DNA of 64,000 nt from a bacterium (GTDB lineage: Bacteria; Pseudomonadota; Alphaproteobacteria; Rhodobacterales; Rhodobacteraceae): positions 124,001 to 188,000 of the forward strand of contig WGOE01000001.1 of assembly GCA_016124195.1 (NCBI GenBank), given 5' to 3'. The notes beneath the pieces are model-generated. The model was given only the letters and a program-made list of their open reading frames with translations, ran no database searches and had not been told where the DNA came from. This document shows, piece by piece, positions 26,340-44,185 of this stretch. The position numbers and the translations under genes are program-made. Numbering within the stretch: position 1 is the first letter of the stretch; each line of letters opens with the position of its first letter.

Positions 26340-26393
26340 CGATAGCGCCTTTCTGCAGCTCGACCCTTGTTGGGCCAAGCTGAACGCTTCGAC

Positions 26394-26408
26394 TTAAGAT
26401 TAGCCTAA
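26394..26408. promoter_or_regulatory. Candidate CtrA box upstream of flgE
   Basis: ttaagattagcctaa: TTAA, seven bases, CTAA (on the minus strand TTAG-N7-TTAA), one mismatch from the full CtrA site. It lies 55 bases before the flgE start and just after the motB stop, suggesting that flgE has its own promoter rather than relying only on motB transcription. Confidence 0.6.
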
Positions 26409-26430
26409 CAGGTAAAATCCAAGACGTATC

Positions 26431-27273
26431 TCAGCGGTTCTTGCGCAAGAGCACGACCTCGATCCGGTTGTTGCGGGCCGCCGTGGGGTCGGCCGTGACA
26501 GGCTTGCGGTCGGCGTGTCCGCTGACCCTGGAGATCCGGCTGGTCGGCATTCCTGCATTTTCAAGCAGTTGCCGCACCACCTGCGCCCGGGAGGATGACA
26601 GGTCCCAGGACGGATTCTTGGCGATCATCACGGGATAGGCATGCACATAGCCGTCCACCGCGATCTGATTCTGGGTCTGGCCAAGAACTTCCGACAAAAG
26701 CGAGGTAATTGCCGTCATGGTATCGGTCGGACTCGCGGTTTCGCCGGTGAAGAGCGGCGTGCCCTCTGTGTCGAAGATTTCGACCACAAGCCCCTCGTCG
26801 GTGACCTTGGTGACCACATGGCTCAGCAAGGTTTGCATGGTGGCGCTTTCGCCGCCCTTGCCCTCGAGGGCGCTTTGCAGGCGCTTGAGTTGCGCATCCT
26901 GTGCGGCGGCGTCCTGGCCGGCCGTATCACCGCCCACACCCCCGGATTTCTGCAACTCACCCGGCGTGGCCGCGGATTGGCCGGTGCCGTCATGCGCCAG
27001 ACTGCGGTCGGTGAAGATCGAGTCGCCGCCAAAGGCGCCCGTGCCCCCGCCGGAAACCCGGTTGATTGGAATCGTCGGATTGAAGTAATCCGCAATGCCC
27101 TTGCGTTGCTTTTCCGTCGTTGCACCCAATAGCCACATCAGCATGAAGAAGGCCATCATGGCCGTCACGAAATCGGCATAAGCGACCTTCCACGCCCCAC
27201 CGTGGTGACCGCCGCCCATTATGATCTTCTTACGCTTGATGATGACTGGCGCGGCATTTGATTGCCCAGCCAT
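26431..27273 (-). CDS. motB: Flagellar stator protein MotB
   Basis: Peptidoglycan-anchored stator subunit. The single transmembrane helix holds the essential proton-binding aspartate (Asp34 in KVAYADFVTAMMAFFMLMWL). A plug/linker region follows and then an OmpA-type domain (IAVDGYVHAYPVM, WDLSSSRAQVVRQLLENAGM, RVSGHADRKP, NNRIEVVLL). The start is taken as ATG at 27273; a GTG at 27282 adds three residues. motB is separated from motA by over 20 kb, unlike the usual motAB pair, and lies upstream of flgE. Confidence 0.93.
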   Translation of the reverse strand: MAGQSNAAPVIIKRKKIIMGGGHHGGAWKVAYADFVTAMMAFFMLMWLLGATTEKQRKGIADYFNPTIPINRVSGGGTGAFGGDSIFTDRSLAHDGTGQSAATPGELQKSGGVGGDTAGQDAAAQDAQLKRLQSALEGKGGESATMQTLLSHVVTKVTDEGLVVEIFDTEGTPLFTGETASPTDTMTAITSLLSEVLGQTQNQIAVDGYVHAYPVMIAKNPSWDLSSSRAQVVRQLLENAGMPTSRISRVSGHADRKPVTADPTAARNNRIEVVLLRKNR

Positions 27274-27364
27274 TCCACACACCCATTAAACACCCAAGGA
27301 TCAGCCTAGCGCAACGGCGTGAACGATGGCTTAACCCTCGGCATTTTATGAGTTTTGCCAGATC

Positions 27365-28403: not shown

Positions 28404-30437
28404 CTAAAGCACGGCACTCAACCGCAAGGCGTCATAGATCGCGGCATGGATATTGCGGGCCTCGACCGAGTCGCCGATGCGGAACAGCTGAAAACCCGCG
28501 GGCCCGCCGTTCAGGGTCTGCGGCCGGCTTGCGATCAGCGCCTCGTAATCCACGGCACCCAGATTGACCGACAGGGGTTTGAGCGCGAAATACAGATCGT
28601 CCAGCGGCAGGGTCCCGTGATTCACGACGACCTGATCGAAATGCCGGGTGATGCCCAGCTTGGCGTAATCGCTGTCGATCGTGGCCTTGATCCGGTTGCC
28701 ATCCTTTTCGACCTTGGTCAGACGATAGGTCACGGTAAAGGTCACCGGCTTGTCCTGCAACGCGCGCATGTAGGGCACGAGGTTCATCGCCATGATGTCG
28801 GGCGCAAAGCTGCGGTCGGGTGTCATCACCTCGACCGTGGCCCCGGCCTCGGCCAGAAGTTGTGCCGCCTGAAGCGCCGTATGATCGCCCGCATCGTCAA
28901 AGAGCAGCACGTTCTGGCCGGGCTTTACGTCGCCCGACAGGATATCCCAGGCCGAGACGGTCAGATCGTTGCCCGCGCTCAGGACATCCTTTTGCGCCAT
29001 GCCCCCCGTCGCCACGATCACCACATCGGGCGAGAGCGCCAGCACATCCTCGGCCTCGGCCCAGGTGTTGAAGCGGAACTCGACCCCGCGCGCAGCGCAT
29101 TGCGCCATGCGCCAGTCGATGATGCCGATCATCTCGGCCCGCCGCTTGGTCTGCGCCAGAAGACGCACCTGACCGCCGGCCTGATCGGCCGCTTCGAAGA
29201 CCGTGACCTGGTGACCCCGTTCAGCACAGACCCGCGCCGCCTCGAGCCCGGCAGGCCCGGCGCCGATCACGACCACCCGCCGTTTGTCGGCGGCCGGCGA
29301 GATCGTATGGGGCATGGTCTCTTCCCGACCAGTCGCGGGGTTGTGGATGCACAGCGCCATGCCGCCCTGATAGATGCGGTCCAGGCAATAGGTGGCGCCC
29401 ACACAGGGGCGAATGTCATGCTCGCGCCCCTCGACGATCTTTTGCACGATATGCGGGTCTGCCATGTGGGCGCGGGTCATGCCGACCATGTCCAGCTGCC
29501 CCGAGGCTATGGCATGACGCGCTGTGGCGACATCGGGGATACGCGCGGCGTGGAATGTCGGCAGGCCGACCTCTGCCTTCATCCGCCCGGCGAAATCGAG
29601 ATGCGGCGCAGATCTCATCCCATGGATCGGGATCACATCGGTCATCGCCGCATCGGTGTGGATGCGCCCCCGGATGATGTTGAGAAAGTCAACCAGCCCC
29701 GAATCGCGGAACATCTTGCCGATGGCCACGCCCTCATCGGGCGATATCCCGCCCGCTTCAACCTCGTCCGCGGTGTAGCGCATGCCAAGAAGGAACTTGT
29801 CCCCCACCCGCTTGCGTACCGCCGCCAGAAGCTCCATCGCAAAGCGCGCCCGGTTTTCCAGATTGCCGCCATAGGGCGCGGGCAGGGCATTGGTGAAGGG
29901 CGACATGAACTGGTCAATGAGGTGGCCATAGCATTCGAACTCCACCCCATCGAGACCGGCCTCTTTCATCCGTTCCGCCGCATCGGCGAAATCGGCAATG
30001 ACCCGTGCGATGTCCCAGTCTTCCATGACCTTGGGAAAGGCGCGGTGGCTGGGTTCGCGCGCGGGACTGGCGGCGAGCACGGGCAGCCAGTCGCCCTTGT
30101 CCCAGCGGGTGCGTCGGCCCAGATGCGTCAGCTGGATCATCACCGCCGCCCCTGCCTCGTGGCAGTCGTCAGCGATGCGGCGCATCCACGGCACGACCTC
30201 GTCCTTGTAGGCCAGTACATTGTTGAAGACCGGCGGCGAATCCTTGGAGACCGCAGCCGAACCCGCCGTCATCACCATCGCCACGCCGGCCTTGGCACGC
30301 TCCAGATGGTAAAGCCGGTAGCGGTCCTTGGGCATGCCATCTTCGGGGTAGGCAGGTTCATGACTGGTCGTCATGATGCGGTTGCGCAGGGTCAGGTGCT
30401 TGAGCGTATAGGGTTGCAGCAGCGGGTCATTCGACAT
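28404..30437 (-). CDS. FMN/FAD oxidoreductase of the trimethylamine/dimethylglycine dehydrogenase type
   Basis: 677 residues, usual size for this class. An N-terminal old-yellow-enzyme TIM barrel (about 1-340: TLRNRIMTTSHEP, IQLTHLGRR, PYGGNLENRARF) is followed by a cysteine motif and an FAD/NAD-type Rossmann domain (RRVVVIGAGPAGLEAARV at about 388). Relatives oxidise trimethylamine, histamine, dimethylglycine, N-methylproline or stachydrine, often as N-demethylases. The iron-sulfur motif here reads CVGATYC...C (Cys345, Cys351, Cys363), with alanine where trimethylamine dehydrogenase has its second cysteine. It follows marR on the same strand after 69 bases, so probably marR and this gene form an operon opposite the hydroxylase operon. 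Confidence 0.85.
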   Translation of the reverse strand: MSNDPLLQPYTLKHLTLRNRIMTTSHEPAYPEDGMPKDRYRLYHLERAKAGVAMVMTAGSAAVSKDSPPVFNNVLAYKDEVVPWMRRIADDCHEAGAAVMIQLTHLGRRTRWDKGDWLPVLAASPAREPSHRAFPKVMEDWDIARVIADFADAAERMKEAGLDGVEFECYGHLIDQFMSPFTNALPAPYGGNLENRARFAMELLAAVRKRVGDKFLLGMRYTADEVEAGGISPDEGVAIGKMFRDSGLVDFLNIIRGRIHTDAAMTDVIPIHGMRSAPHLDFAGRMKAEVGLPTFHAARIPDVATARHAIASGQLDMVGMTRAHMADPHIVQKIVEGREHDIRPCVGATYCLDRIYQGGMALCIHNPATGREETMPHTISPAADKRRVVVIGAGPAGLEAARVCAERGHQVTVFEAADQAGGQVRLLAQTKRRAEMIGIIDWRMAQCAARGVEFRFNTWAEAEDVLALSPDVVIVATGGMAQKDVLSAGNDLTVSAWDILSGDVKPGQNVLLFDDAGDHTALQAAQLLAEAGATVEVMTPDRSFAPDIMAMNLVPYMRALQDKPVTFTVTYRLTKVEKDGNRIKATIDSDYAKLGITRHFDQVVVNHGTLPLDDLYFALKPLSVNLGAVDYEALIASRPQTLNGGPAGFQLFRIGDSVEARNIHAAIYDALRLSAVL

Positions 30438-30506
30438 TTGGGCCTCCGGTTTGGCAAAACCTAGCGTCGACAGGACGTCTGCAACTGTCGGTTTGCGACC
30501 TGTTTT

Positions 30507-30929
30507 TCAAGTAAGCCGCGACAAAAGCTGAATGAGGCAAGCGCGCTCGGCCTCTGACAAGGGGGCAAGCGTGTCCGTGCTGACCTGCAACGCCGCCGCA
30601 ATCCTTTCTGCGTAAAGCTGCGCGCCGGCATCGGTCAGGCTGACGGTCAGGCGTCGGCCATCCACCGGGTCGGGCGCCGTCTGCACCAGACCGCCACGCA
30701 CCAGGCGGTCCACCACGCCCTTGATCGTCGCAGCATCCATCGAGGTGGCACGGCCCAGCGTGTTCTGCCCTTGCGGCCCCAGTTCCGCCAGTTTGGCCAG
30801 CGCCGCGAATTGCGTCGTGGTGATCTCGGGGATGGCCGCGTTGAAGATCGACAGATGCCTTTGGGTCACCCGCCGCAGCAGATAGCCGATCTGGTCGTCC
30901 AGAGAATAGGCGGGCGTGTCGGTGTGCAT
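30507..30929 (-). CDS. MarR-family transcriptional regulator
   Basis: 140 residues with the winged helix-turn-helix of MarR (ITTTQFAALAKLAELGPQGQ, LGRATSMDAATIKGVVDRLV, and the wing TAPDPVDGRRLTVSLTDAGA). MarR proteins usually repress divergent genes and release DNA on binding an aromatic or heterocyclic ligand. The start at 30929 is chosen by the MHTDTPAYSLDDQIGYLLRR N-terminus. It diverges from the hydroxylase operon across 96 bases holding a palindrome, and lies upstream of the flavin oxidoreductase, so it probably controls both sides. Confidence 0.88.
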   Translation of the reverse strand: MHTDTPAYSLDDQIGYLLRRVTQRHLSIFNAAIPEITTTQFAALAKLAELGPQGQNTLGRATSMDAATIKGVVDRLVRGGLVQTAPDPVDGRRLTVSLTDAGAQLYAERIAAALQVSTDTLAPLSEAERACLIQLLSRLT

Positions 30930-30969
30930 CGCTTGGCAATAGCCACGGTGGCCACGGGGCGCAACACTG

Positions 30970-31014
30970 TTGACAGACTCCGGTCGGCACCGGCAAGCTC
31001 GTTTGCACACAAAC
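30970..31014 (+). promoter_or_regulatory. Putative promoter -35 and MarR operator of the hydroxylase operon
   Basis: ttgaca at 30970-30975 is a consensus -35 box; no clear -10 follows at the usual spacing. At 31001-31014 gtttgcacacaaac is a perfect palindrome (GTTTG, four bases, CAAAC) just 12 bases before the ATG of the first operon gene. MarR operators are short palindromes overlapping promoters, so repression by the neighbouring MarR protein is likely. This is inference from sequence and position. Confidence 0.5.
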
Positions 31015-31025
31015 AAGATCGACCC

Positions 31026-31844
31026 ATGACCCCCTACGTCCGCCCAGCCAACCTGTCCGAGGCCATTGCCCTGGCCGGCCACGGCTATCGCCCTCTGGCC
31101 GGAGGAACCGATCTGTATCCCGGCGCAGGGCGCGAGTTGTCCGGCCCGGTGCTGGACCTGACGGCGCTGAGCGAATTGCGCGGCTTTGATGCCACGCATG
31201 GTCTGCGGATCGGAGCCTGCACAAGCTGGGCCGCGATTGCCGAGGCCAGCTTGCCGCCCGCCCTGCGCGCCTTGCAACAGGCCGCGCTGCAGGTAGGCGG
31301 GCGCCAGATTCAAAACGCTGGCACCATCGGCGGCAACATCTGCAATGCCTCTCCGGCCGCGGATGGCATCCCGCCCCTTCTGGCCCTGAACGCCGAGCTG
31401 GAGTTCGCCGGGCCGGGCGGCAAACGGCGGATTGCGCTGGAACAGGCTCTGCTCGGCCCGCGCAAGATTGCGAGGGCCCCGGATGAAATTCTGATCGCCG
31501 TGCATATTCCAGCCGCAGCGCTGACCGGGCGCTCGGCCTTCCGCAAGCTTGGGGCGCGGAGCCATCTTGTGATTTCGATCGTGATGGCGGCGGTCAATCT
31601 GAGGATCGAGGCGGGTCGGATAATGCGGGCGCGCATTGCGGTCGGCTCTTGCGCGCCCACGGCCCGGCGCCTGCCGGGACTGGAGCAGGCGTTGACCGGC
31701 ATGACGCCGGATCAGGTGGTGATTGACCCCGCTCTCGTGATAGCGGCCCTGTCCCCGCTGGACGACATTCGTGCCACTGCCGCTTACAGGTCTGCGGCGG
31801 TCGTCACCCTGCTGTCCCGCCTGATCAGGGAATGTGGCGCATGA
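31026..31844 (+). CDS. Molybdenum hydroxylase FAD-binding subunit (xanthine dehydrogenase/CoxM type)
   Basis: 272 residues of the FAD_binding_5 family: the FAD-loop motif [13 protein letters not shown] at about 20-32 and the second motif [20 protein letters not shown] at about 99-118, then a CO-dehydrogenase flavoprotein C-terminal part ([20 protein letters not shown]). It would pass electrons from the FeS clusters of the next gene product to an acceptor. It is the first gene of the operon, 12 bases after the palindrome, and overlaps the next gene by four bases. Confidence 0.9.
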
Positions 31845-34519
31845 TCGACTTTACCCTGAACGGCAAGACGGTCACAGCTGAGGTTGCGCCCACCCTGCGC
31901 CTGTCCGAGGTCTTGCGTGATCATCTGGGCCTGACCGGCACCAAGGTCGGCTGTGATGCCGGCGATTGCGGCGCTTGCACGGTTCTGGTCGACGGGCGCG
32001 CCCAATGCGCCTGCCTGATCCCCATTGGCCGTATCGCAGCCTGCCATGTCCAAACGGTCGAGGCTGAAACGCCGCTTCTTTCGCGGCTGCGCGCCAGTTT
32101 CCTGCGGCATGGCGCGGCGCAATGCGGCATCTGCACGCCGGGAATGTTGATGGCCGCCTGCGATCTGCTGAACCGGACGCCGCACCCGACACCGGCCCAG
32201 GTCGAGCAGACGCTTGGCGGCGTCCTGTGCCGCTGCACCGGCTATCGCAAAATCATCGAAGCCGTGACCAAGGCCAATTCTGCCTTTACAGAGCCTGAAA
32301 TGGTCTCGAAAGTCGGTGCCAGCCTGCAGCGGGTCGATGGCGCGGCGAAGGTGTCGGGCGACAGGTTTGGCGCCGACCTGACGCCATCCGGGGCGGTGAC
32401 GGTGAAGGCCATCCGCGCGCCGCATCCCCATGCGGACTTTGTGTTTGGCGATCTTGCGGCTTTCGCGGCGCGGCCCGGAGTGGCGGGCATCTTTACCGCC
32501 AAAGATATTCCCGGACGCAACGCCTTTGGCGTGATCCCCGCCTTCGCCGATCAACCCGCCATTGCCGCCGCACCGGCGCGTTTTCGTGGCGAATGCGTTG
32601 CTCTGGTGGCCTTTGAACCCGGCGCCCCGGCCGATCTCGGGGAATTTCCGATCACCTGGACCGCATTGCCCGCCCTGCTGTCGCCCGCCGCAGCTGAGGC
32701 GCAGGGGGCCCCGCTGCTGCACCCGCACCGCCGCGAAAATCGGCTGACACAGGGTCGCGTAGTCAAGGGCGATGCGGGTCAGGCGCTCGCCGGTTCGGCC
32801 CATGTCGTCGGCGGCAGCATCACGACTTCGCATGTCGAACATGCCTATATCGAACCAGAGGCCGGCGCCGCCTGGATGGAGGGGGACACCCTCGTGATCC
32901 GCGCCTGCACCCAAGCCCCCGCGATGGACCGGGATGACACCGCAGCCGTTCTGGGCTTGCCGATCGACCGGCTGCGCATTGTCCCCTCGGCGGTGGGCGG
33001 CGGCTTCGGTTCGAAACTGGATGTGAGCCTGCAACCGCTGATTGGCCTCGTCACGCTGAGGACCGGACGGCCGAGCCGGATGGTATATGACCGGGCCGAA
33101 AGCATGACTTCGACCACCAAGCGCCACCCGGCCGAGATCACCGGCCGGATCGGCTGCGATGCGACTGGCCGCATCACCGGGATGGAATTCGAGGGCCGGT
33201 TTGACACCGGCGCCTATTCCTCCTGGGGGCCAACAGTGGCGAACCGCGTGCCGGTCCATGCCTCCGGCCCCTACCGCACGCCGCATCTGACCGCCCATGC
33301 CCGGGCCGTCCACACCCATGGTCCAGTCAGCGGTGCCTTTCGTGGCTTTGGCGTGCCGCAAGCCGCTGTCTGGCAAGAGACACTTTACGACGAACTGGCC
33401 GCGAAAGTCGGCCTCGACCCGCTGGAGTTTCGCATTCTGAACGCGCTGCGCGACGGCGATGCCTCTGGCACGGGTCAGGTGCTGCAGGCCGTAGGCATCG
33501 GCCCTTGTCTGGAGGCGCTGCGCCCGCACTGGCAGCGCGCCCGGACCGAGGCGGCCAGCCAGCCATTTCGCGGCGTGGGCGTCGCCTCGTGCTGGTACGG
33601 ATGCGGCAATACGGCGCTGCCCAACCCATCGACCATCCGGATCGGTGTGACCGCTGCGGGACGGATCGTCCTGCATCAGGGCGCCACCGATATCGGCCAG
33701 GGCTCCAACACCGTGATCGCACAGATCGCGGCCGAAGCTTTGGGCGTGCCGGTGCAGGCGCTGCACCTGATCGGACCCGACACCGCGCTGACGCCGGATG
33801 CCGGCAAGACCTCTGCCAGCCGGCAGACCTTTGTCAGCGGCCGGGCGGCACAGTCCGCGGGTCTGGCCCTGCGCGCCGCCCTTTTGCGGTTGGCCAATGC
33901 AGGCGAGGACGCGGTCCTGCTGGCCGATGACAGCGGCATCCATGTCAGAACAGGCTCTGACACACGCCAAATCCAGCTTGAGGGTTTGCCAGCCGATGCC
34001 CTCGGCTACGCGCTCAGCGTCGAGGAAACCTACGACCCGCCCACGCTGCCCTTGAATGAGAACGGCCAGGGCAGCCCCTATGCCGTCTACGGCTATGGTG
34101 CGCAGATGGTCGAATTGTCGGTCGATCCCGATCTGGGAATGGTGACACTGCACAAGATCACTGCCGCGCATGATCTGGGACGCGCCATCAATCCCATGCT
34201 CGCCGAGGGTCAGATCGAAGGCGGTATCGCTCAAGGCATCGGCATGGCCCTGATGGAGGAATATGTCTCTGGCCGCACTGACAATCTGCACGACTATCTG
34301 ATACCGACCTTTGGCGACGTGCCACCGATCGAAAGCCTGCTGATCGAAGTGCCCGACCCCGAGGGCCCCTTTGGCGCCAAGGGCTTGGGCGAACATGTGC
34401 TGATCCCGACAGCGCCTGCCATACTCAACGCCATCCGTCACGCCACGGGTGCGCGTCTGACCCGCCTGCCGGCCCTGCCTCATCGCATTCTTGCCGCCAT
34501 GAAGGGGCAAATCGGATGA
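31841..34519 (+). CDS. Fused [2Fe-2S]/molybdopterin hydroxylase (xanthine dehydrogenase family)
   Basis: 892 residues. The N-terminal about 155 residues carry two [2Fe-2S] clusters: a plant-type set (Cys38, Cys43, Cys46, Cys58 in [14 protein letters not shown]...C) and a helical set (QCGICTPG and VLCRCTGYR). The rest is the molybdopterin-binding subunit with [20 protein letters not shown] and the conserved active-site glutamate in [11 protein letters not shown] near the C-terminus. The family hydroxylates carbons next to nitrogen in heteroaromatic rings using water, or oxidises aldehydes. FeS and Mo parts are usually separate genes in bacterial heterocycle hydroxylases; here they are fused as in aldehyde oxidoreductases. 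The start at 31841 overlaps the upstream stop. Confidence 0.92.
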
Positions 34520-35961
34520 CAGAAAAGATCCGCTGCGACGCTTGTCCCGTGATGTGCTACATCGCGCCCGGCCAGACCGGCGCCTGCGACCGCTATGCCA
34601 ACAGCGACGGCAGGATCGTGCGGACCGATCCGCTGGTCATGCTGTCGCACGCCGTGCAGAACGGCACCCGCCTCGTGCCCTTTGCCAGCCGCCCCTGGGC
34701 AGAAAGCGCCGACACAGAGCCTCTACCGACTGACGTGACCCTGACCGGCATCGGCAGCGGTACCACCTATCCGGACTACAAGCCCGCGCCCTTCATCGTC
34801 TCGTCCAAGGTCGCGGGGGCCGACATGGTCACCGTTGTGACCGAGGCGATCTTTTCTTACTGCGGGGTCAAGGTGAAGATCGACACCGACCGCTTCCTTG
34901 GCCCGGAAGGTGCCGCGGTCCGCGCAAAGGGCGAGGTGATCGGCCATGTCACCACGGCGGAATATGGCAGCCAGATGCTGTCGATCGGCGGCGTGCATCA
35001 TTTGACCGGCGGCTCCAAACCCGAAGGGCGCGAGACCTGTGCCACCATGCTCGCGCTGTGCAACGGCGAGGCGGCAGAACTTGTCATCGATGGTGGCGCG
35101 GTCGTGTTGGTGCAGGCCGGCAAGGCGCCCGTGGTCGATGGCAAGCCCGAATATCGCATGCGGGTTGGCTGCGGCTCTGCCACCATCGGGATGTTTGCCG
35201 CCCAATGGAAGGGTCTGGTCGACGAGGTTGTCGTGGTCGATGACCATATCACCGGCGTCGTCTCGGAACATCAGGCCGGCAAGGTTCTGGACTGGCCACC
35301 CACCGGCATCCGCATCAAGGGGCACCGCTCGACCCCCGGGCGCTATTTCCGCGTGTCAGAGCCGGGCCTCGGCTGGGGTGGCACGAAGCTGACAGACCCG
35401 CTGGACATCCTTGGCCCCTGGAAGGCCGAAAAGGGTGCCCGCCCCGGCCTGACCCTGCTCATGGTCTCGACGACGGGCGAGGACCACGGCTATTTCGTGC
35501 TTGATCAGTCTCTGATCCCGCAAAGACAGCCCCTGCCGGATCATTTGAAACCGACGGTCTCGTTGATCGCGGAAAACTGTGAACCTGCGCTTTGCACCGT
35601 GATGTTTGTAGGCGGTGCAGGCGGGTCGTTGCGGGCTGGCGTGGCCCGCAATCCAGTCCGTCTCACTCAATCGGTCCAGGGTGGCCGGACAGAGTTGACC
35701 ATCGGCGGCGCCAAATGCTTCGTCTGGCCCGGCGGCGGCATCACCTTCATGGTTGACGTCCTCCACCTGCCGCGCGGTGCCTTTGGTTACGTGCCCACGC
35801 CCGCTCTTGTAGCTCCGTTGGAGTTCACACTGCCGCGCGAAGATTATCTTGCGATGGGTGGTCACGCCGAACAAATCCTGTCTCTGGATCAGGTCTTGCG
35901 AGAGGGCGGAGAATATACGACCGCAGCCGAACTGCGGCCCCGCCCGGACAAAGCGTCATGA
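34516..35961 (+). CDS. 6-Hydroxynicotinate reductase-like iron-sulfur protein
   Basis: 481 residues. An N-terminal cysteine cluster (Cys7, Cys10, Cys14, Cys24 in [20 protein letters not shown]) suggests a [4Fe-4S] centre. The remainder has glycine-rich segments ([55 protein letters not shown]). I recognise it as the family annotated as 6-hydroxynicotinate reductase, known from nicotinate fermentation in Eubacterium barkeri, where it reduces a hydroxylated pyridine ring to a cyclic lactam. The identity of the substrate here is unknown. It follows the hydroxylase with a four-base overlap, consistent with reduction of the hydroxylated product. Confidence 0.75.
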
Positions 35962-36785
35962 CAGGTCCACAAATCGCCAAACTGCCAGATGGTCGGCTGC
36001 ACCTTCAGCACGGGCCGATCGACCTGATCTGCGAGGCCTGGGGCGACGGCGATGCCGTGACCCTTGCGCATGATCTGGCGGCGCAACGGTTTGGCACCAT
36101 TCTGGCCGAACTCGCAACGGAACTGCCCGCTCTGCGCTTGGCCGATGCGCCGGTCAATGGCACTGTCGCGCGCAAGATGGCCGCCGCCGTGGCACCGTTT
36201 CGACCCGCCTTCGTCACGCCAATGGCCGCGGTTGCGGGCGCCGTGGCCGAGACGATCCTGGCTGCCATGCTGCCCGCCGGGCTCAGCCGGGCCTATGTGA
36301 ACAACGGTGGGGACATCGCCCTGCATCTGGCACCGGGCCAGCAGTTGACGGCGGCGATTGCCGGAACGCCCCACCGCATCACCATCCGGGCGGCGGATAG
36401 GGTCCGCGGGATTGCGACCTCCGGCTGGGGGGGGCGGAGCTTTTCGCTTGGCATTGCCGATTCAGTCACTGTCCTGGCCGCAACGGCGGCGATGGCCGAT
36501 GCCGCCGCCACGATGGTCGCCAATGCGGTGGATCTGCCGGGCCATCCTGGGATCCAACGTGCCAGCGCCAGCAGCCTTCGGTCCGACAGCGACCTGGGCG
36601 AGCTTTTGGTGACCACCGGCGTCGCGGCCCTGTCGGGTGCGGAGTGCGATGCCGCCCTTGATCGCGGTGCGGATTTTGCCGCAACCTGCCTCGTGCGCGG
36701 CCTGATTTACGGCGCGGCGCTGTGCCTCGGCTCTCATCTGCGCACCGTCGGCGCGCCCTTCCTTTCGGAGATCGTCCATGCCTGA
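35958..36785 (+). CDS. UPF0280 family protein (ApbE-like)
   Basis: 275 residues. Family features: TPMAAVAGAVAETILAAM, then the YVNNGGDIALHL motif also found in ApbE flavin transferases, IATSGWGGRSFSLGIADSVT, and a DAAATMVANAV segment. ApbE transfers FMN to proteins; whether UPF0280 members do so is not established as far as I know. Tight coupling (four-base overlap) to the reductase-like gene suggests it matures or modifies that enzyme, or acts in the same pathway. This is inference. Confidence 0.75.
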   Translation: MTGPQIAKLPDGRLHLQHGPIDLICEAWGDGDAVTLAHDLAAQRFGTILAELATELPALRLADAPVNGTVARKMAAAVAPFRPAFVTPMAAVAGAVAETILAAMLPAGLSRAYVNNGGDIALHLAPGQQLTAAIAGTPHRITIRAADRVRGIATSGWGGRSFSLGIADSVTVLAATAAMADAAATMVANAVDLPGHPGIQRASASSLRSDSDLGELLVTTGVAALSGAECDAALDRGADFAATCLVRGLIYGAALCLGSHLRTVGAPFLSEIVHA

Positions 36786-37356
36786 ATTTCGCCTCCGCCG
36801 CATGACTCTGCAGATCGAAGAGATCTTTCACGATGGCGGACCGGAGGCCGAACCGCGGCGCCGCGGCGCCGTGCTGGCGGTGGTGTCGAACCCGTTTTCG
36901 GCACGGTTCGAGCCTGATTTGCAGCGAGGGATGGAGGATCTGCGGCCGCTTGGTCTGCGCATGACCGACCGCTTGATCGCCGCTTTGGGCGGCAAGGAAA
37001 AGATCGACGGCTACGGCAAGGGTGCCATGGTCGGCGCGCTTGGTGAGGCGGAACATGGCGCGCTCTGGCATGTGCCGGGGGGCTATGCGATGCGCGAACG
37101 TCTGGGTGAAAGCCGGGCCATCGTGCCCTCGGCGATGAAGGTCGCCCCGATGGGGGGCAGCCTCGATGTGCCTTTGGGCCATATCAACGCGGCCTATGTG
37201 CGCAGCCACTTCGACGCGATGACCGTGACGGTTCCGGATGCGCCCAAGCCGGACGAGATCGTCTTCGTTCTGGCCATGTCCTGCGGTGGTCGCGTCCACA
37301 GCCGGATGGGCGGACTGGAGGTCTGGCAGGTCAAGGGCGAGGATGGGTTGCGCTGA
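36778..37356 (+). CDS. DUF1185 family protein (amino acid synthesis family)
   Basis: 192 residues, no signal or membrane helix. It matches the family annotated as amino acid synthesis protein/DUF1185 (RRGAVLAVVSNPFSARFEPD, DGYGKGAMVGALGEAEHGAL, IVPSAMKVAPMGGSLDVPLG, HINAAYVRSHFDAMTVTVPD). Catalytic function is unknown. It overlaps the UPF0280 gene by eight bases and the HyuA gene by one base (TGATG), so it belongs firmly to this operon. Confidence 0.75.
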   Translation: MPEFRLRRMTLQIEEIFHDGGPEAEPRRRGAVLAVVSNPFSARFEPDLQRGMEDLRPLGLRMTDRLIAALGGKEKIDGYGKGAMVGALGEAEHGALWHVPGGYAMRERLGESRAIVPSAMKVAPMGGSLDVPLGHINAAYVRSHFDAMTVTVPDAPKPDEIVFVLAMSCGGRVHSRMGGLEVWQVKGEDGLR

Positions 37357-39392
37357 TGTCCGGTCTGACAGCCGGCGTTGATGTCGGAGGCACCTTTACC
37401 GATCTGGTCACCCTGGACCCTGCCACCGGGACGCTGCGGATGGCCAAGGTGCCGACGACCTTGCCCAACCAGGCGGGCGGCGTCATTGCGGCCTTTACCG
37501 CCGCCGAGGTTGATCTGGCCGAGGTCAGCCTGATCATTCACGGCACGACCACCACGACCAACGCCGTTCTGGAACGGCAGCTGTGCCGGACCGGGCTGAT
37601 CACGACCCAGGGCTTTCGCGATGTGCTGGAACTTGGCCGTCGCACTCGCCCGCAGGCCTATGGCATGAAGGGCCAGTTCCGCCCGGTCATCCCGCGCGAT
37701 CTGCGCCTTGAAGTGGCAGAGCGCATGGATGCATCGGGCCGTGTCGTGACTCCGCTTGACGAGGATGCGCTCCGCGCGGCTGTCGTGCGGTTGCGCGACG
37801 CGGGTTGTGAAAGTCTGGTCATCCACTTCCTGCACGCCTATGCCAACCCAGCGCACGAACTCCGCGCTGGCGAGATCGCGTCGGCGCTCTGGCCGAACGC
37901 GCATATCACGCTCGGGCACGCCCTGCTGTCCGAAAGCCGCGAATTCGAACGTGGTGTTACCGCCGCGGTGAATGCCGCCGTGCAGCCCTTGCTGGAACGC
38001 TACATCAGCCGGCTGGCGCGCGATCTGCGCGACCGCGGCTATGCGGCGCCCTTGTTGGTGATGAACGGCAATGGCGGCATGGTCAGTGCCGAAAATGTCT
38101 CTCGCGAGGCGGTAAAGACCGTGATGTCCGGACCTGCCTCGGGGGTCATGGCGGCACTGGCAACCGGGCGCCGCGCCGGAATGCCCAACCTTCTGACCTA
38201 TGACATGGGCGGCACCTCGACCGATGTCGCGATGATCCGGGACGGCCGCGCTCCGGTCTCGAACGAGATCGAGGTGGAATATGCCATGCCGATCCATGTC
38301 CCTATGGTCGATGTGCGCACCGTCGGCGCAGGCGGAGGCTCCATCGCGCGGATCGATGCGGGCGGCCTGTTGCGCGTTGGCCCCGAAAGCGCAGGCTCTT
38401 ATCCGGGGCCGGTTTGCTATGGCCGCGGCGGTACGTCAGTGACGATTTCCGATGCCAATCTTTTGCTTGGCCGTCTGCCTGCCGCCCGTTTTGGCGCCGC
38501 GATCGAGGCGGCTCGGCAGGCGATGCAGGACCAGATCGCCACCCCGCTTGGCCTTTCGGTCGAAGAGGCGGCCGCGGCTGTCGTGCGCATCGCCAACACC
38601 CATATGGCCGGCGCGATCCGCCTTGTCTCGCTGTCACTGGGCGCCGATCCGCGCGACTTTGCGCTGTTCGCTTTCGGCGGCGCCGGTCCGCTGCATGCCG
38701 TGGCGCTGGCGCGCGAACTGGCCGTGCCGCGCGTTCTGGTGCCGGCGCGCCCCGGTCTGACCAATGCGCTCGGCTGTGTCGTGGCCGATCTGCGGCATGA
38801 TTTCGTGCGCACGATCAACCAGCCGCTCGACCTGGCCGACATGGGGCGCGTCCATGCGATCCTAGTGGCGCAAGAGGCCGAGGGCCGTGCCATCATCGCC
38901 GCGGAACGGGTCGCGGTGGAGGAGATCGAGACGGAATTCACCGCGGACATGCAGTTTCTGGGCCAGACCCACCTCCTGCGCATCCGTCTGCCGCATTCAA
39001 AACCCACGCGTGATGATCTTCAACGCCTGTTCGAGGCTGCCTATTTCGCCCGCTTCAGGGTCGATCTGCCGATGATCCGCGCCAATCTGGTCAACCTTTC
39101 CGTTTCGGTGATCGGACGCAGGCCGATGCCGGATCTCAGCCAGCTGATTGCCATTTCGGGCCGTGCAGAGACACTTTCGGCCCTGGGCAGCCGTCAGGTC
39201 TGGTTCGATGGCTGGACCGATACGCCGGTTTACTGGCGTGATCACATGCCGCTGTCCGCCCGGCTGACCGGCCCCGCCATCATCGAGCAGATGGACACCA
39301 CCCTGCTTGTCGAGCCCGGATGCATGGTTCAGACCGATGCCGACGGCAATCTGATCATCGAGGTGCCGCATGACCGACCTATCCAGGATTGA
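37356..39392 (+). CDS. Hydantoinase/oxoprolinase family subunit A
   Basis: 678 residues. The N-terminal phosphate-binding motif GVDVGGTFTDLVTLD and LIIHGTTTTTNAVLERQ, a central RRTRPQAYGM segment, LLTYDMGGTSTDVAMI and the metal/nucleotide region VRTVGAGGGSIARID are characteristic of HyuA/N-methylhydantoinase A. These enzymes use ATP to open cyclic amides, or in acetone carboxylase relatives to carboxylate. With HyuB (overlapping by 23 bases) it could open a lactam formed by the upstream hydroxylase and reductase. Confidence 0.9.
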   Translation: MSGLTAGVDVGGTFTDLVTLDPATGTLRMAKVPTTLPNQAGGVIAAFTAAEVDLAEVSLIIHGTTTTTNAVLERQLCRTGLITTQGFRDVLELGRRTRPQAYGMKGQFRPVIPRDLRLEVAERMDASGRVVTPLDEDALRAAVVRLRDAGCESLVIHFLHAYANPAHELRAGEIASALWPNAHITLGHALLSESREFERGVTAAVNAAVQPLLERYISRLARDLRDRGYAAPLLVMNGNGGMVSAENVSREAVKTVMSGPASGVMAALATGRRAGMPNLLTYDMGGTSTDVAMIRDGRAPVSNEIEVEYAMPIHVPMVDVRTVGAGGGSIARIDAGGLLRVGPESAGSYPGPVCYGRGGTSVTISDANLLLGRLPAARFGAAIEAARQAMQDQIATPLGLSVEEAAAAVVRIANTHMAGAIRLVSLSLGADPRDFALFAFGGAGPLHAVALARELAVPRVLVPARPGLTNALGCVVADLRHDFVRTINQPLDLADMGRVHAILVAQEAEGRAIIAAERVAVEEIETEFTADMQFLGQTHLLRIRLPHSKPTRDDLQRLFEAAYFARFRVDLPMIRANLVNLSVSVIGRRPMPDLSQLIAISGRAETLSALGSRQVWFDGWTDTPVYWRDHMPLSARLTGPAIIEQMDTTLLVEPGCMVQTDADGNLIIEVPHDRPIQD

Positions 39393-41061
39393 TCCGGTAA
39401 CGCTGTCGGTCATTCAGGCCAGCCTGCAACAGGTCTGCGACGAGATGGACCTGACTTTCTCGCGCGCGGCCTTCTCGCCCGTCATTGCCGAGGCGAATGA
39501 CCGGTCCGATGGCATCTACGCGGCAGAGGATGGTGCGCTGATCGCCCAAGGCTCGCAGGGCCTGCCGGTCTTTGTGGGTGTGATGCAGTTTTCGACCGAG
39601 ACGATCATCAAGCGCATCGCCAACGGTCAGACCCTGGCTCCAGAGCCCGGCGACATCTACATCGTCAATGACCCCTACCTCGGCGGCACGCATCTGATGG
39701 ATGTGCGCTTCGCAATGCCCTATTTCCGCAACGACAGGCTCGTTTTCTGGCTGTCCAACACCGGTCACTGGCCGGACACGGGCGGTGCGGTGCCCGGTGG
39801 GTTTTCCGCCTCGGCGATCAGTTCGGAACAGGAGGGCCTGCGCCTGCCGCCCGTCAAGCTGTTCAAGCGCGGTCATATGGACAACGAGATTTGGGATATC
39901 ATCCGGTCGAACATCCGCGTCTCCGATCAACGCATCGGCGACGTCAAGGCACAGGCTTCGGCGCTTCTGGTCGGCGCCGAGCGGTTGACCCAGCTGTTGG
40001 ATCGCTACGGCGACGACACCGTTGGCCAAGCCATCGTCGAGATGCGTCTGCGGGCCGCCCGCCAGATGCGCGCCATGATCGCGCTGATCCCTGAAGGGCG
40101 GTTCGAGGCCAAGGCCGAGATCGACAGCGATGGCGTGGTCAATCAGCCCCTGACCATCGCACTGGCGGTGGAACGGCGCGGCGAGGCGCTGCATTTCGAC
40201 TTTGCCGGATCGTCGCCGCCCTGCATGGGGCCGATGAATTCAGTGCGCGCCACGACGCTGTCCTCGGTCTTCCTGGCCATCCGGCACATCTTTCCCGAGG
40301 TGCCATTGTCCTCGGGCGCATTCGAACCGCTGGTCGTCGAAAACATCGCCGGCACCTTTCTGGATGCCGCCTATCCGCGCCCGGTCTCTGGCTGCGCGGC
40401 CGAGGTCAGCCAGCGGATCGCCGAGGCGGTCTTTGCGGCGTTGGTGCCCGCCTTGCCCGACCGTGTGACCGCCGCACCAGCCGGCACCAGCGGCAACTTC
40501 GGCCTCGGCGGGCATGATCCGCAAAAGGGCCGCGACTATGTGATGTATCAGATTTCCGGTGGCGGCTATGGCGGCAATGCCGATCACGACGGGCTGTCGA
40601 ATGGCTGTTCGACCATCGGCATCTCCAAGGCCCCCCCGGTCGAGATCATGGAGCAGAATTTTCCCGTCCTCTATCACCGTTATGCCTTGCACGAAGGCTC
40701 TGGCGGGGCGGGCAAGCACCGTGGGGGGTTCGGGCTGGACTATGAAATCGAGCTTCTGCGCGGCAAAGCTCGGGCGAGCTTCGTGATGGATCACGGGCGC
40801 AATGGCCCGCAAGGCGCCTTGGGCGGTTTGGATGGCGGTGTGAACCGGGTCGAGGTGACGCAGAACGGTGTTACATCGGTGCCTGAACACCTGTCGAAAG
40901 CGCAGGACATCGCCCTGTCGCCCGGCGACCGCGTTCGCGTGCGTACGCCGGGCGGCGGCGGCTATGGTCGCCCAACCGAACGCGACCCGGCCTTGATCGA
41001 GGAAGACATTCGTCTTGGCCGCTATTCCGCCGCGGAGTCGCAAAGCCGCTTCGGGCGCTGA
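39370..41061 (+). CDS. Hydantoinase/oxoprolinase family subunit B
   Basis: 563 residues, typical for HyuB. Key segments: SRAAFSPVIAEANDRSDGIY near the N-terminus, GDIYIVNDPYLGGTHLMDVR, FWLSNTGHWPDTGGAVPGGF, then CMGPMNSVRATTLSSVF and a glycine-rich C-terminus (GGAGKHRGGFGLDYEIELLR, VRTPGGGGYGRP). It forms the catalytic complex with HyuA and ends the operon. The stop lies inside a hairpin shared with the convergent sulfotransferase gene. Confidence 0.9.
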   Translation: MTDLSRIDPVTLSVIQASLQQVCDEMDLTFSRAAFSPVIAEANDRSDGIYAAEDGALIAQGSQGLPVFVGVMQFSTETIIKRIANGQTLAPEPGDIYIVNDPYLGGTHLMDVRFAMPYFRNDRLVFWLSNTGHWPDTGGAVPGGFSASAISSEQEGLRLPPVKLFKRGHMDNEIWDIIRSNIRVSDQRIGDVKAQASALLVGAERLTQLLDRYGDDTVGQAIVEMRLRAARQMRAMIALIPEGRFEAKAEIDSDGVVNQPLTIALAVERRGEALHFDFAGSSPPCMGPMNSVRATTLSSVFLAIRHIFPEVPLSSGAFEPLVVENIAGTFLDAAYPRPVSGCAAEVSQRIAEAVFAALVPALPDRVTAAPAGTSGNFGLGGHDPQKGRDYVMYQISGGGYGGNADHDGLSNGCSTIGISKAPPVEIMEQNFPVLYHRYALHEGSGGAGKHRGGFGLDYEIELLRGKARASFVMDHGRNGPQGALGGLDGGVNRVEVTQNGVTSVPEHLSKAQDIALSPGDRVRVRTPGGGGYGRPTERDPALIEEDIRLGRYSAAESQSRFGR

Positions 41062-41082
41062 CCGCAGCGGCGTGTCAGCGCC
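41054..41082. terminator. Hairpin spanning both convergent stop codons
   Basis: ggcgctgac and its exact complement gtcagcgcc form a nine-base-pair stem around an 11-base loop. The hyuB stop lies in the left arm and the sulfotransferase stop in the right arm. No T-run follows, so it may act as a bidirectional blocker rather than a classical intrinsic terminator. Confidence 0.5.
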
Positions 41083-42475
41083 AGTCCTCGAACCCGAAAT
41101 AGATGTAGTCGCGGCCGTAAGCCTCGCGCGCGGCAGCTTCCAGATCGCGGTCATACAGCTGATCCAGGGCAAATCGCCCCGGCTCGGCCACTTTGGGAAG
41201 GGGCTGCATCTTGACCCCGACCTCGGCGCAGAGGAACGCAAGACCCTCCTCCAGCCGATCTTCGCGCAGGATATGGTCGGGGGCCTGCAACTGGGCAAAA
41301 CCGCCGATCGTAGCGATCTGGGTGGCCAGATGAGGCGGCGTGCGCAGTTCCGTGCGCCCCGCATGCAGATGCTTGACCACCTCAAGAAACTTGAGAAACC
41401 CGGCGCGATGCGCGGCCTGATCGGCGAAACCCTCGCCTTTGGGCGGCAATTCGAACTTGTGGATGCGCTTCATGTGGCCGCGCAGTTCCGCCATCCACTC
41501 CTTGTCGAGGAAGTCGCAAAACGCCGCGTGCGCTCGGGCAAGCGGATGGCGCAACACGGTAAAACTGCGATGCCCCGGCCTGTCGCTGCGCCAGGCTTTC
41601 AGCCCCTGCCGGTCAAAGCCGGTCAAGACCTCGCCATAGGTCTGCAACCACTTGCGCATGGCCTGGTCCGGCGCCGCCTTGATCGGCTGGAACAGCAGGG
41701 GCGCCGCGGCACTTGCCACATAGGTGTTGATGGCCCCCTGCCGGCGCGGTTCGAAATTCGGCGTATGCCTCAGATTGTAAAAGTCGATCTGGTTCAGCCC
41801 CGCCGCCATTTCGGCCGGGTTAGAGACCTTTTCGGTCAGAGGCTCGGGGTTTTGCTTCTTATAGGAGAGATCCAGCTTTTCCAGTCGCCCCTCCACGCCC
41901 AGAAAGGCCGCGAGCCCGTTGATCACCTTCAGATCCAGCACATCCTCATAGTCGATGTAGAAGGCCGTCTGACCGCTGACCTGAAGTCGGTTGAGCAAAA
42001 GACGCTGGAACTCTTGCAACGTGTCCACTCGCTCGCGGAATTCCTCAATCAGAAAGCGCGGCCGCGCCGTCTTGATGTTGGCGGCAGAGGTGGTGCGCCA
42101 CTGGTTGGATTCCTTGGCGATCTTCCAGGAGATGTAGCTTTCCAAAGGGTTGCGAGTGAGGATGATCTTGGCAACGGTCGGATCGTCGACCACCATGTCG
42201 AAGACACGCGGATCGTGGTTGTGAAAGTAGCGAAAGCCCGAAAGTCCTTCGGTCTCTTTCCGCATAACCTTCAAAAGGCTTTCCGGGTTCAGATCGCGCT
42301 GATGGATGCTGACGCCCAGAAGCTCGGTCTTGTTGGAATTGCCAACGAAGACCGGATTGAACGCTTCGCCATAGCAGGTCACCCCAGGGATGGCGTTCAG
42401 ATTGGCCTCAAGAAAGTTCGAACCCGTCCGCATTTCCGCAAAGACGACGAAGGATTGAAAGCGGGCTTTGGCCAA
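41075..42475 (-). CDS. Sulfotransferase with two sulfotransferase-like halves
   Basis: 466 residues. The N-terminal half has the PAPS 5'-phosphosulfate loop (FAEMRTGSNFLEANLNAI at 12-29) and the 3'-phosphate motif (IILTRNPLESYISWKIA at about 124-140), as in NodH/Stf0-type enzymes. The C-terminal half has a second, weaker region (SFTVLRHPLARAHAAFCDFL) like the RHP...FCDF motif of Sulfotransfer_2 proteins. Sulfate would be moved from PAPS to a surface sugar. It is in a minus-strand group with glycosyltransferases, and a CysQ-like PAP phosphatase is encoded seven kilobases away on the same strand. Confidence 0.8.
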   Translation of the reverse strand: MAKARFQSFVVFAEMRTGSNFLEANLNAIPGVTCYGEAFNPVFVGNSNKTELLGVSIHQRDLNPESLLKVMRKETEGLSGFRYFHNHDPRVFDMVVDDPTVAKIILTRNPLESYISWKIAKESNQWRTTSAANIKTARPRFLIEEFRERVDTLQEFQRLLLNRLQVSGQTAFYIDYEDVLDLKVINGLAAFLGVEGRLEKLDLSYKKQNPEPLTEKVSNPAEMAAGLNQIDFYNLRHTPNFEPRRQGAINTYVASAAAPLLFQPIKAAPDQAMRKWLQTYGEVLTGFDRQGLKAWRSDRPGHRSFTVLRHPLARAHAAFCDFLDKEWMAELRGHMKRIHKFELPPKGEGFADQAAHRAGFLKFLEVVKHLHAGRTELRTPPHLATQIATIGGFAQLQAPDHILREDRLEEGLAFLCAEVGVKMQPLPKVAEPGRFALDQLYDRDLEAAAREAYGRDYIYFGFEDWR

Positions 42476-42487
42476 GGACAGATCCCT

Positions 42488-44185
42488 TTACTTCACCAGA
42501 TAGGGGCGGCGCCGCCGCGTGGTGGCCGGCGTCGGGTCCTCTCCGGTCGGGAAGTCGCCCATCAGCACAGGTTGCATGCCCTGATTTCGCAAATTCTGCA
42601 AGAACTGGCCAAATCCCTTGAGGTCGGCGAGGCGCGGCGCCTCGGTCAGACGGCGCGCGCTGCGCGGGCTGATCTCGTCCACGATGCTCTGCAAGGGCTC
42701 CATCGGATTTTCGACAAATTCGGCCAGGGTCCAGATCCGGATCCGCGCCTTGGCGTAATGCGAGCGCAGGATGCCGATGTGATCGGCCTCGATTTTCTGC
42801 AAACGCGCCGCCTCGCGCCGGATGTCCGAGAAATTCTGGTTGGAATGGAAAAGCGGAATGGCCCAGGCGCCCGAAATCACCGAGATCTGCGCATTCGGAT
42901 CGCAGGCCATGAACCAGCTGCAATCCTGCCGGTCGTTGGGGCCGAACTGAAAGCACTGCCGCTCTCCGCGCGTGTTCCAGATCAGGTTCGACAGGAAATT
43001 CTTTGGTGCATAGTCGCGCAAGGCCGCACTGTCGGACAGGGCACCACTGAAGACCGTCTCATTGCCGGCAAATTCAACACGGTCCGGCGCGAACAGATGG
43101 CCATGCGCGCGGGTACCGGCGACCTTGCCCAGCCAGACTTCGAAATTCTCGAACACTTCCGAAAAGCCTTCAAGCACCGAATAGGGCGCTGCGGTGCGAC
43201 CATTCTCCCAGTTTTCGTTGGGAAAGCGGCTTTGCATGTAAAGGCCGGCGCGTCCCTTGATCCGCCGCTCGACCGCCTTGGAGAACAGCCGGTCGATCTT
43301 GCCCGGGTTCGGCTCTGCTGCGGGCTGCCCGCCCCCGGCGTTGTGCAGGAAGGTGTCGTAAAGCTTGTCCGCCTGTGGCCAGATCTTGCGCGCCACAAAG
43401 CAATCCGACCGGCGCAGCAATTGCAGGTGATCGTCATAAAAAATATGCGGCTTGCCCTGATAGTCGAACTTCGACAGCGTCAGCGACCGGCTTTCCACGT
43501 TGGTCGAGTAAAGCCGGACCATCGTCTGGAAGTAGCTTTCGTCCGGGATCCACACCCTGCGGAAATAGCGGTCCGTCTCGGCCCGATCCGGGCTTTCCAG
43601 GATCGCCGAGAGGGTCTGCCGGGTCAGGCACCACCATTGGCTACCCAGATGAGGCACCAGACCCGCAGGCACCTTTCGACAAAAGCCGATGCGGCGCTGA
43701 AACCGGACATACCAGTCAAAAATCCGCCGACGTTTGCGCCAGCTGAAGGGAAACCGCAGCGTGAACCGTTCCAGATTAAGACCGCCCACGGTCCAGCCCA
43801 CATCCGACGTGGTCACACTTTCAATGAAATCGGTGCGCGGCCGGCTGTCCAGATAACGGCGCAGCTCTTCCACGGGTCGCAGCGGCAGGCAGGACCCCGA
43901 GGCAAGATAAACATGCCGCACCTCGGCAAATTCACGCAGCATCAGGGTGGCCGCTTCTTGCGTTGCGGCCACGATGCCCCAGGTCCCCCATTCGCAGGCA
44001 TAGCGTCCGGAGAACCGCACATTCCCCAAATCCGCCAATGCAGCCATCAGCCCGTCATAGGCCGGGCGCTCGACCCGTCGGTCCACGTGGATGACAACCG
44101 GGCAATCCCGCTCGGCCCAGTGGCGCGCGACTTCCGCCGCGCGGTCAAGGGCCGTGTGGCACAGCATGACAAAGCCGACGCTCAC
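42488..44185 (-). CDS. Core-2/I-branching-type beta-1,6-N-acetylglucosaminyltransferase-like protein
   Basis: 565 residues. The N-terminal half matches GT14 Branch-like enzymes: MSVGFVMLCHTALDRAAEVA, then VVIHVDRRVE, NVRFSGRYACEWGTWGIVAA, VYLASGSCLPLRPVEELRRY, and a WWCLTRQTLSAI segment with PDESYFQTMVRL. The C-terminal about 250 residues (DDHLQLLRRSDCFVARK onward) are a separate domain that I do not recognise. No membrane helix is obvious. Together with the neighbouring sulfotransferase it probably decorates a surface polysaccharide. Confidence 0.75.
   Translation of the reverse strand: MSVGFVMLCHTALDRAAEVARHWAERDCPVVIHVDRRVERPAYDGLMAALADLGNVRFSGRYACEWGTWGIVAATQEAATLMLREFAEVRHVYLASGSCLPLRPVEELRRYLDSRPRTDFIESVTTSDVGWTVGGLNLERFTLRFPFSWRKRRRIFDWYVRFQRRIGFCRKVPAGLVPHLGSQWWCLTRQTLSAILESPDRAETDRYFRRVWIPDESYFQTMVRLYSTNVESRSLTLSKFDYQGKPHIFYDDHLQLLRRSDCFVARKIWPQADKLYDTFLHNAGGGQPAAEPNPGKIDRLFSKAVERRIKGRAGLYMQSRFPNENWENGRTAAPYSVLEGFSEVFENFEVWLGKVAGTRAHGHLFAPDRVEFAGNETVFSGALSDSAALRDYAPKNFLSNLIWNTRGERQCFQFGPNDRQDCSWFMACDPNAQISVISGAWAIPLFHSNQNFSDIRREAARLQKIEADHIGILRSHYAKARIRIWTLAEFVENPMEPLQSIVDEISPRSARRLTEAPRLADLKGFGQFLQNLRNQGMQPVLMGDFPTGEDPTPATTRRRRPYLVK

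Follow-up and report, generated by a model that had tools for sequence, protein, structure and literature searches.

Which compound is degraded by a gene set that joins a molybdenum hydroxylase, a ring reductase, an ATP-dependent lactam opener and an N-demethylating flavoprotein around a single marR gene? The question is raised by a locus at positions 28404-41061 of a 64,000-nucleotide stretch of DNA (hereafter the window; positions 124,001 to 188,000 of contig WGOE01000001.1, assembly GCA_016124195.1) from a 4.26 Mb genome of the family Rhodobacteraceae. A flavoenzyme gene and marR lie on the minus strand, and seven genes run through 41061 on the plus strand with overlaps of 1 to 23 bases at all six of their junctions; a divergent intergenic region of 96 bases (30930-31025) separates marR from the first rightward gene. 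These coordinates and overlaps agree with an initial annotation made from the sequence alone, which had also noted a palindrome at 31001-31014 and had read the whole as a probable N-heterocycle degradation locus. The reductase, the molybdenum half of the hydroxylase and the distribution of two ring openers among related genomes support that reading and narrow it: the rightward operon looks, from its sequences, like a reductive nicotinate-type operon with HyuAB where an enamidase would be expected.

The rightward operon and its proposed ring opener

The third rightward gene (34516-35961, plus strand), single copy in its genome, encodes a homologue of 6-hydroxynicotinate reductase (HNR). The ring reductase-like protein of the initial annotation takes this name from plasmid records, 26 of which hold homologues with 58-78% identity; 17 of the 26 are named 6-hydroxynicotinate reductase, and the other nine are labelled differently, lack a listed gene or are unannotated. 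At the N-terminus, cysteines 7, 10, 14 and 24 (C-x2-C-x3-C-x9-C) are invariant in 35 sequences and probably constitute an Fe-S motif. Neither Pfam nor NCBIfam assigned HNR to a family at E ≤ 0.001, and its model (pLDDT 76) gave no Foldseek fold match at the same threshold. Two hints of a glycine-cleavage T-protein were seen below threshold, one at residues 116-152 (Pfam GCV_T_C, 18 bits vs a cut-off of 25.9) and one from Foldseek (1wos, probability 0.38).

Upstream of HNR lie the genes of the molybdenum (Mo) hydroxylase, an assignment of the initial annotation that Pfam and the nearest solved structures uphold: an FAD subunit (31026-31844, plus strand; PF00941 and PF03450) and a fused [2Fe-2S]/molybdopterin subunit (31832-34519, plus strand). 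Were the latter to start at an alternative in-frame ATG, at 31841, it would overlap the FAD subunit by 4 bases. Residues 560-895 of the Mo subunit have nicotinate dehydrogenase (3hrd_B) as their top solved relative, with 220 bits vs 172 bits for the next.

Two samples were used for comparison. The genome survey covered 394 genomes of the family, mostly one per genus, with few candidates scored per genome and a single setting of E cut-offs (HNR 1e-100, HyuA 1e-220, enamidase 1e-90, UPF0280 1e-12, and 1e-200 for the OYE-type flavoenzyme); Fisher values from it ignore kinship. The locus sample comprises ten plasmid neighbourhoods and the best 80 of at least 593 confirmed stretches, 90 loci in all; being the best of so many, the 80 lean to close relatives, and many loci end early at contig edges, some of them cut on the flavoenzyme side. 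The ten plasmid neighbourhoods, one of which carries no annotation, were searched by tblastn. Every one of them holds UPF0280 and one or more PF06684 genes together with HNR; a second PF06684 gene is present in seven, the Mo hydroxylase in eight, MarR in nine, a ferredoxin-NADP reductase in six, HyuAB in seven and an amidohydrolase in three. Nicotinamidase-like genes occur in 14 of the 90 loci, six of them with HyuAB, and the one such protein that was run against NCBIfam (from L036) scored over the nicotinamidase/pyrazinamidase cut-off. Comparing the neighbourhoods of reductase homologues, as the initial annotation had suggested, thus reveals a core that is not scattered, in which HNR and UPF0280, and HyuA and HNR, co-occur almost perfectly.

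The last two genes encode hydantoinase/oxoprolinase A and B subunits, HyuA (37356-39392, plus strand) and HyuB (39370-41061, plus strand), Pfam families that bear out the ATP-dependent lactam-opener type proposed earlier. The alternative opener is an amidohydrolase; that of L005 matches the solved 'ENAMIDASE' 2vun at full length (1.8e-105), its sole hit at E ≤ 1e-8. We take both 2vun and 3hrd to be proteins of Eubacterium barkeri. Among the 90 loci, 35 hold HyuA, three an enamidase and none both; the enamidase loci being too few, the distribution was tested in the 394 genomes. HNR is present in 135 of these, i.e., a third, HyuA in 73 and an enamidase homologue in 59. The 135 HNR genomes divide into 72 with HyuA only, 58 with the enamidase only, none with both and five with neither. 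Conversely, HNR accompanies 72 of the 73 HyuA genomes (Fisher p 1e-39) and 58 of the 59 enamidase genomes (2e-30), the HNR-less exceptions being a HyuA genome that is 85% complete (G022) and an enamidase genome that is 88% complete and has a 56% match (G348). The five genomes with neither opener are G014, in which HNR contains stops, G029 (97% complete), and G147, G220 and G359 (73-77% complete). The source genome of the window (G000) has HyuAB and no enamidase homologue at E ≤ 1e-90. The plain reading of this exclusion is that HyuAB performs the step of the enamidase. In a tree built from the HNR of 40 loci, of which 26 have HyuAB, four the enamidase and 10 an unassigned opener, the opener switches at least two times. 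Decay or assembly errors were also met in the survey, namely one internal TGA in the HyuA of G285, G135, G148 and G133, and several stops in the HNR of G014.

OplAB, relatives of HyuAB, open the six-membered delta-valerolactam using ATP, according to the available text of PMC11033972. With OplAB and the caprolactamase CapAB the window proteins share both subunit families, the HyuA and HyuB domains being near full length, but they miss the NCBIfam equivalog cut-offs of CapA and CapB (486.7 and 308.2 vs 1000) and differ in being genomically linked to HNR. The window also resembles the reductive nicotinate route of E. barkeri and Azorhizobium caulinodans in having a Mo half nearest to nicotinate dehydrogenase, an HNR homologue and accessory genes beside HNR, and differs from it by HyuAB in place of the enamidase, by the lack of a transporter and by an added demethylase. 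The available portion of PMC3511419 describes a nicotinate-growing strain whose HNR is 42% identical to the E. barkeri enzyme, as well as a proteobacterial reductive nicotinate cluster with two conserved unknown proteins near HNR, which we infer to be UPF0280 and PF06684. A literature search of partial coverage found no proposal of HyuAB for this opening step or of UPF0280 for HNR, a weak negative.

UPF0280 beside the reductase

Directly behind HNR lies the gene of a UPF0280 protein (35958-36785, plus strand; NF003322 over its cut-off). Its AlphaFold2 model has a pLDDT of 95. At E ≤ 0.001 Foldseek matched this model to 25 entries, 23 of them ApbE/FmnB/Ftp flavin transferases and the remaining two 2o34, a DUF375 structure. 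A profile search of solved sequences likewise found 2o34, with no ApbE entry at E ≤ 1. Residues A180, D181, A183, A184 and T185 are invariant in 40 sequences, and this A-D-x-A-A-T pattern is similar to the metal motif given for ApbE, A-D-A-x-x-T.

The association of UPF0280 with HNR is close to complete. UPF0280 is found in 135 of the 394 genomes, 133 of which have HNR too, leaving two genomes with HNR alone and two with UPF0280 alone. All four misfits sit at assembly edges or are partial: in G155 and G325 the match lies at the start of a contig or close to it, the HNR of G008 is partial, and that of G132 is at a contig start. At the level of gene order, UPF0280 stands immediately behind HNR in 87 of the 90 loci; the exceptions are L009, with a MarR match in between, L032, where the contig ends, and L043, where none was found. 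The HNR of E. barkeri reportedly holds a covalent flavin. Taken together, the ApbE fold, the co-occurrence with HNR and this flavin suggest that UPF0280 is probably the flavin transferase of HNR.

The next gene (36778-37356, plus strand) encodes a PF06684 (AA_synth, DUF1185) protein with the solved relatives 3byq and 2qtp. It is a single copy in the window, and a tandem PF06684 pair follows UPF0280 in L003, L004, L005, L006, L008, L010 and L011.

MarR and the divergent palindrome

The MarR-family regulator (PF01047) is encoded at 30507-30929 on the minus strand, with its ATG at 30929. In BpsR, a MarR-family repressor whose targets include nicotinate genes, the ligand 6-hydroxynicotinate is bound via Tyr15, His23, Arg26 and His32, as given in the available text of PMC6837509. 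Tyr8, Tyr16, Arg19 and His25 of the window MarR stand at the same spacing, so that three of the four residues (Tyr, Arg and His) are identical when the proteins are aligned by spacing, not by structure; the genes under control are different. Among 67 related MarR proteins, 62 could be anchored, and 59 of these have Tyr, Arg and His together, with Asn for His in L003, L008 and L011; the five unanchored proteins, excluded from this count, look alike by eye. In the window genome, one of the 27 PF01047 hits carries the signature, and it is the window MarR. The residues suggest that this regulator probably senses 6-hydroxynicotinate or a close analogue.

Within the divergent region, the palindrome GTTTG-N4-CAAAC (GTTTGcacaCAAAC / GTTTGCACACAAAC) occupies 31001-31014 and recurs at related loci. 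A divergent marR/FAD-subunit pair is present in 33 loci, counting the window. Of these, 15 have the palindrome with at most one mismatch, vs 0.25 expected from dinucleotide shuffles, and 28 with at most two, vs 2.26 expected; these loci are related and do not amount to 33 independent trials. The search left the four middle bases free, and these read Y-R-Y-R at every one of the 15 near-perfect sites. The palindrome was not matched within two mismatches in the three marR-less loci L015, L020 and L023, which form one clade, so its loss there counts as one event. The conservation in 28 loci supports the common MarR control region that had been proposed for both sides, and the palindrome is probably the MarR operator.

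The residues of the ligand pocket also bear on the substrate of the operon. Instead of nicotinate, the operon might degrade a different pyridine carboxylate, for example picolinate. Opening of picolinate in its reduced 6-oxo form would yield 2-oxoadipate, and the enzyme set would chemically serve such a pathway. The tested Mo half, however, is nearest to nicotinate dehydrogenase, and the nicotinamidase-like neighbours, the exchange with the enamidase and the 6-hydroxynicotinate pocket residues in MarR all point away from picolinate, which we consider improbable. Homarine, with N-methyl-2-aminoadipate as the product, had been considered at first as the substrate behind the demethylase. It was set aside as less likely because the same four observations indicate nicotinate, and also because the published homarine pathway is said, in the available text of a citing paper (PMC13390433), to involve Mgd.

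An apparently captured demethylase and the possible substrate

The leftmost gene (28404-30437, minus strand) encodes a flavoprotein of 677 residues of the OYE/TMADH family (Pfam Oxidored_FMN and Pyr_redox; hereafter OYE). It is 71% identical over its full length to plasmid proteins annotated as HpbA, N-methyl-L-proline N-demethylase, which is in keeping with the N-dealkylating type proposed initially; by sequence it is an HpbA-type N-methyl amino acid demethylase. StcD of Sinorhizobium meliloti, to which it is likened by description only, has been described as an N-methylproline demethylase (PMC12239276). The window OYE differs from HpbA in sitting behind the marR of a nicotinate-type operon.

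OYE adjoins HNR in 10 of the 80 genome loci and lies within about 10 kb of it in at least 10 of the 135 HNR genomes, as read by eye. Several arrangements are seen. In L013, L014 (= L120), L016, L018, L021 and L052, OYE stands beside HNR and a TetR gene is retained. In the window, L012 and L119, which form one clade (support 100/99), and separately in L122, whose placement in the tree is not strongly supported (85/77), TetR is lost and OYE lies directly behind marR. Both TetR and marR are lost in L015, L020 and L023, another single clade (100/99), where OYE faces the FAD subunit, and L121 is a convergent case. If the state with TetR is the older one, as we infer, OYE came under the control region of the operon in three lineages. 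A separate clade of HNR-linked OYE proteins was considered and rejected, since linked and free copies mix in the tree. What ties the demethylase to the pathway is thus its gene order and what looks like a regulatory capture; the two do not strictly co-occur. With OYE beside HNR in this minority of loci, its place in the pathway can be put forward only conditionally.

The enzyme could instead be an ordinary N-methylproline demethylase of the stachydrine pathway, a neighbour with no substrate in common with the nicotinate operon. This is quite possible, though short of an even chance. A close OYE homologue is found in 203 of the 394 genomes; a TetR gene accompanies the free copy in 14 of 18 fetched stretches (L092 = L110; none was found in L112, L117, L124 and L125); and free and HNR-linked copies are intermixed in the OYE tree with at least six state changes, all of which speak for this reading. 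Such a neighbour sits less easily with the window OYE being the sole close homologue in its genome, where the next-best match has 37% identity, with neither a TetR nor a Rieske partner having been found beside it, and with the loss of its own regulator in three lineages, if the TetR arrangement is older and the weakly placed L122 is counted.

At the other extreme, the pathway of this lineage would in truth serve a pyridine carboxylate that is N-methylated, with trigonelline (N-methylnicotinate) as the best candidate. The enzymes named above would then act on the N-methyl ring in unchanged order, and the HpbA-type flavoprotein would take off the methyl group before or after ring opening. The identity to annotated N-methylproline demethylases and the several arrangements beside HNR speak for it, as does a quite different locus, L115:1-19001, in which an HNR/enamidase cluster is joined by OYE, by a Rieske oxygenase together with its reductase, and by TetR; a homologous Rieske protein, in L126, is nearest to the GbcA model, under its cut-off. 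OYE is missing from most HNR loci, however, linked and free copies mix in one tree, so that we found no sequence feature to set apart a changed substrate, and the nicotinamidase-like gene in six HyuAB loci points to plain nicotinate. That some N-methylated compound, trigonelline for instance, is used is plausible, but an N-methylated pyridine carboxylate as the true substrate of this lineage seems to us somewhat unlikely. The fuller proposal of an aerobic reductive pathway for trigonelline-type N-methyl pyridine carboxylates, with HyuAB for the enamidase, UPF0280 as a dedicated HNR flavin transferase and a captured relative of N-methylproline demethylases under a 6-hydroxynicotinate-sensing MarR, we hold to be unlikely.

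We regard as likely that the operon encodes the upper part of a reductive pathway that starts from nicotinate or a closely related pyridine carboxylate, with HyuAB as the opener, an HNR flavinylated by UPF0280, MarR acting on the palindrome and a captured demethylase. The Mo hydroxylase would add the 6-oxygen to nicotinate, and HNR, equipped with Fe-S clusters and with a flavin that UPF0280 attaches covalently, would convert 6-hydroxynicotinate to tetrahydro-6-oxonicotinate. HyuAB, instead of an enamidase, would then open the six-membered lactam with ATP to yield 2-formylglutarate and ammonia. MarR on the palindrome would repress both directions until released by 6-hydroxynicotinate. As for the HpbA-type demethylase, its gene mostly stands free in other places and has a TetR of its own; in this lineage it may have been pulled into the marR side, where it would probably give access to N-methylated relatives or products.

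Several observations weigh against this account. The product of HyuAB is deduced from the exclusion with the enamidase, and the HNR tree holds only four enamidase loci, with L006 on a long branch and of unsure placement. HNR takes its identity from named homologues and has no solved relative, its model is moderate, and a flavinylation site sought by eye (a D-H-I-T-G-V stretch, Ser221) gave none firm enough. UPF0280 differs from the flavin transferases whose fold it has in common by its family membership, by a score below the Pfam ApbE cut-off (12.3 vs 25.6 bits) and by modest TM-scores to ApbE structures, about 0.3 to 0.5. When the whole Mo subunit with its Fe-S domain is compared, aldehyde oxidoreductase outscores nicotinate dehydrogenase. 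The fourth ligand residue of BpsR, His23, is Tyr16 in the window MarR, and the palindrome was not matched within two mismatches in five of the 33 marR loci (L018, L021, L036, L052 and L060). OYE and HNR occur together in 87 genomes, just somewhat above the 69.6 expected (Fisher p 3e-4). Transporter pieces, present in 63 of the 90 loci, are absent at the window, the best livK match genome-wide being 30%, and no ferredoxin reductase lies beside the operon, the nearest match in the genome (56%) being elsewhere.

With no transporter gene, ferredoxin reductase or post-ring-opening enzyme inside the locus, the claim of one complete pathway fails. The window arrangement, with OYE and marR on the left and an operon free of transporter genes on the right, is also found in L012 and in L119 of the same genus. 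A protein of 457-487 residues without a Pfam family occurs in 39 of the 90 HNR loci, mostly beside Liv transporter genes (e.g., L002:14897-16270, L004:2746-4209 and L005:4125-5534), and the window locus has no copy of it. Judged by eye, genes resembling those of the flagellar hook and of MotB adjoin the locus at 25035-27282, with a similar flank at L119:1528-5249. On the right, outside the operon, two large leftward genes at 41075-44185 are sulfotransferase/glycosyltransferase-like by eye only.

The gene set had been thought to match no described pathway. Its first steps are described, in the E. barkeri/Azorhizobium route (available portion of PMC3511419), so the set is not wholly new; what looks different is the probable HyuAB substitution and the apparently captured N-demethylase. 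The analysis gives UPF0280 a specific testable role as the flavin transferase of HNR and the HyuAB clade one in the ATP-driven opening of a six-membered enamide lactam, and the MarR clade gains a defined operator-like site. The complete exclusion between HyuA and the enamidase in 130 of the 135 HNR genomes points to an apparent swap of two unrelated ring openers in vitamin catabolism.

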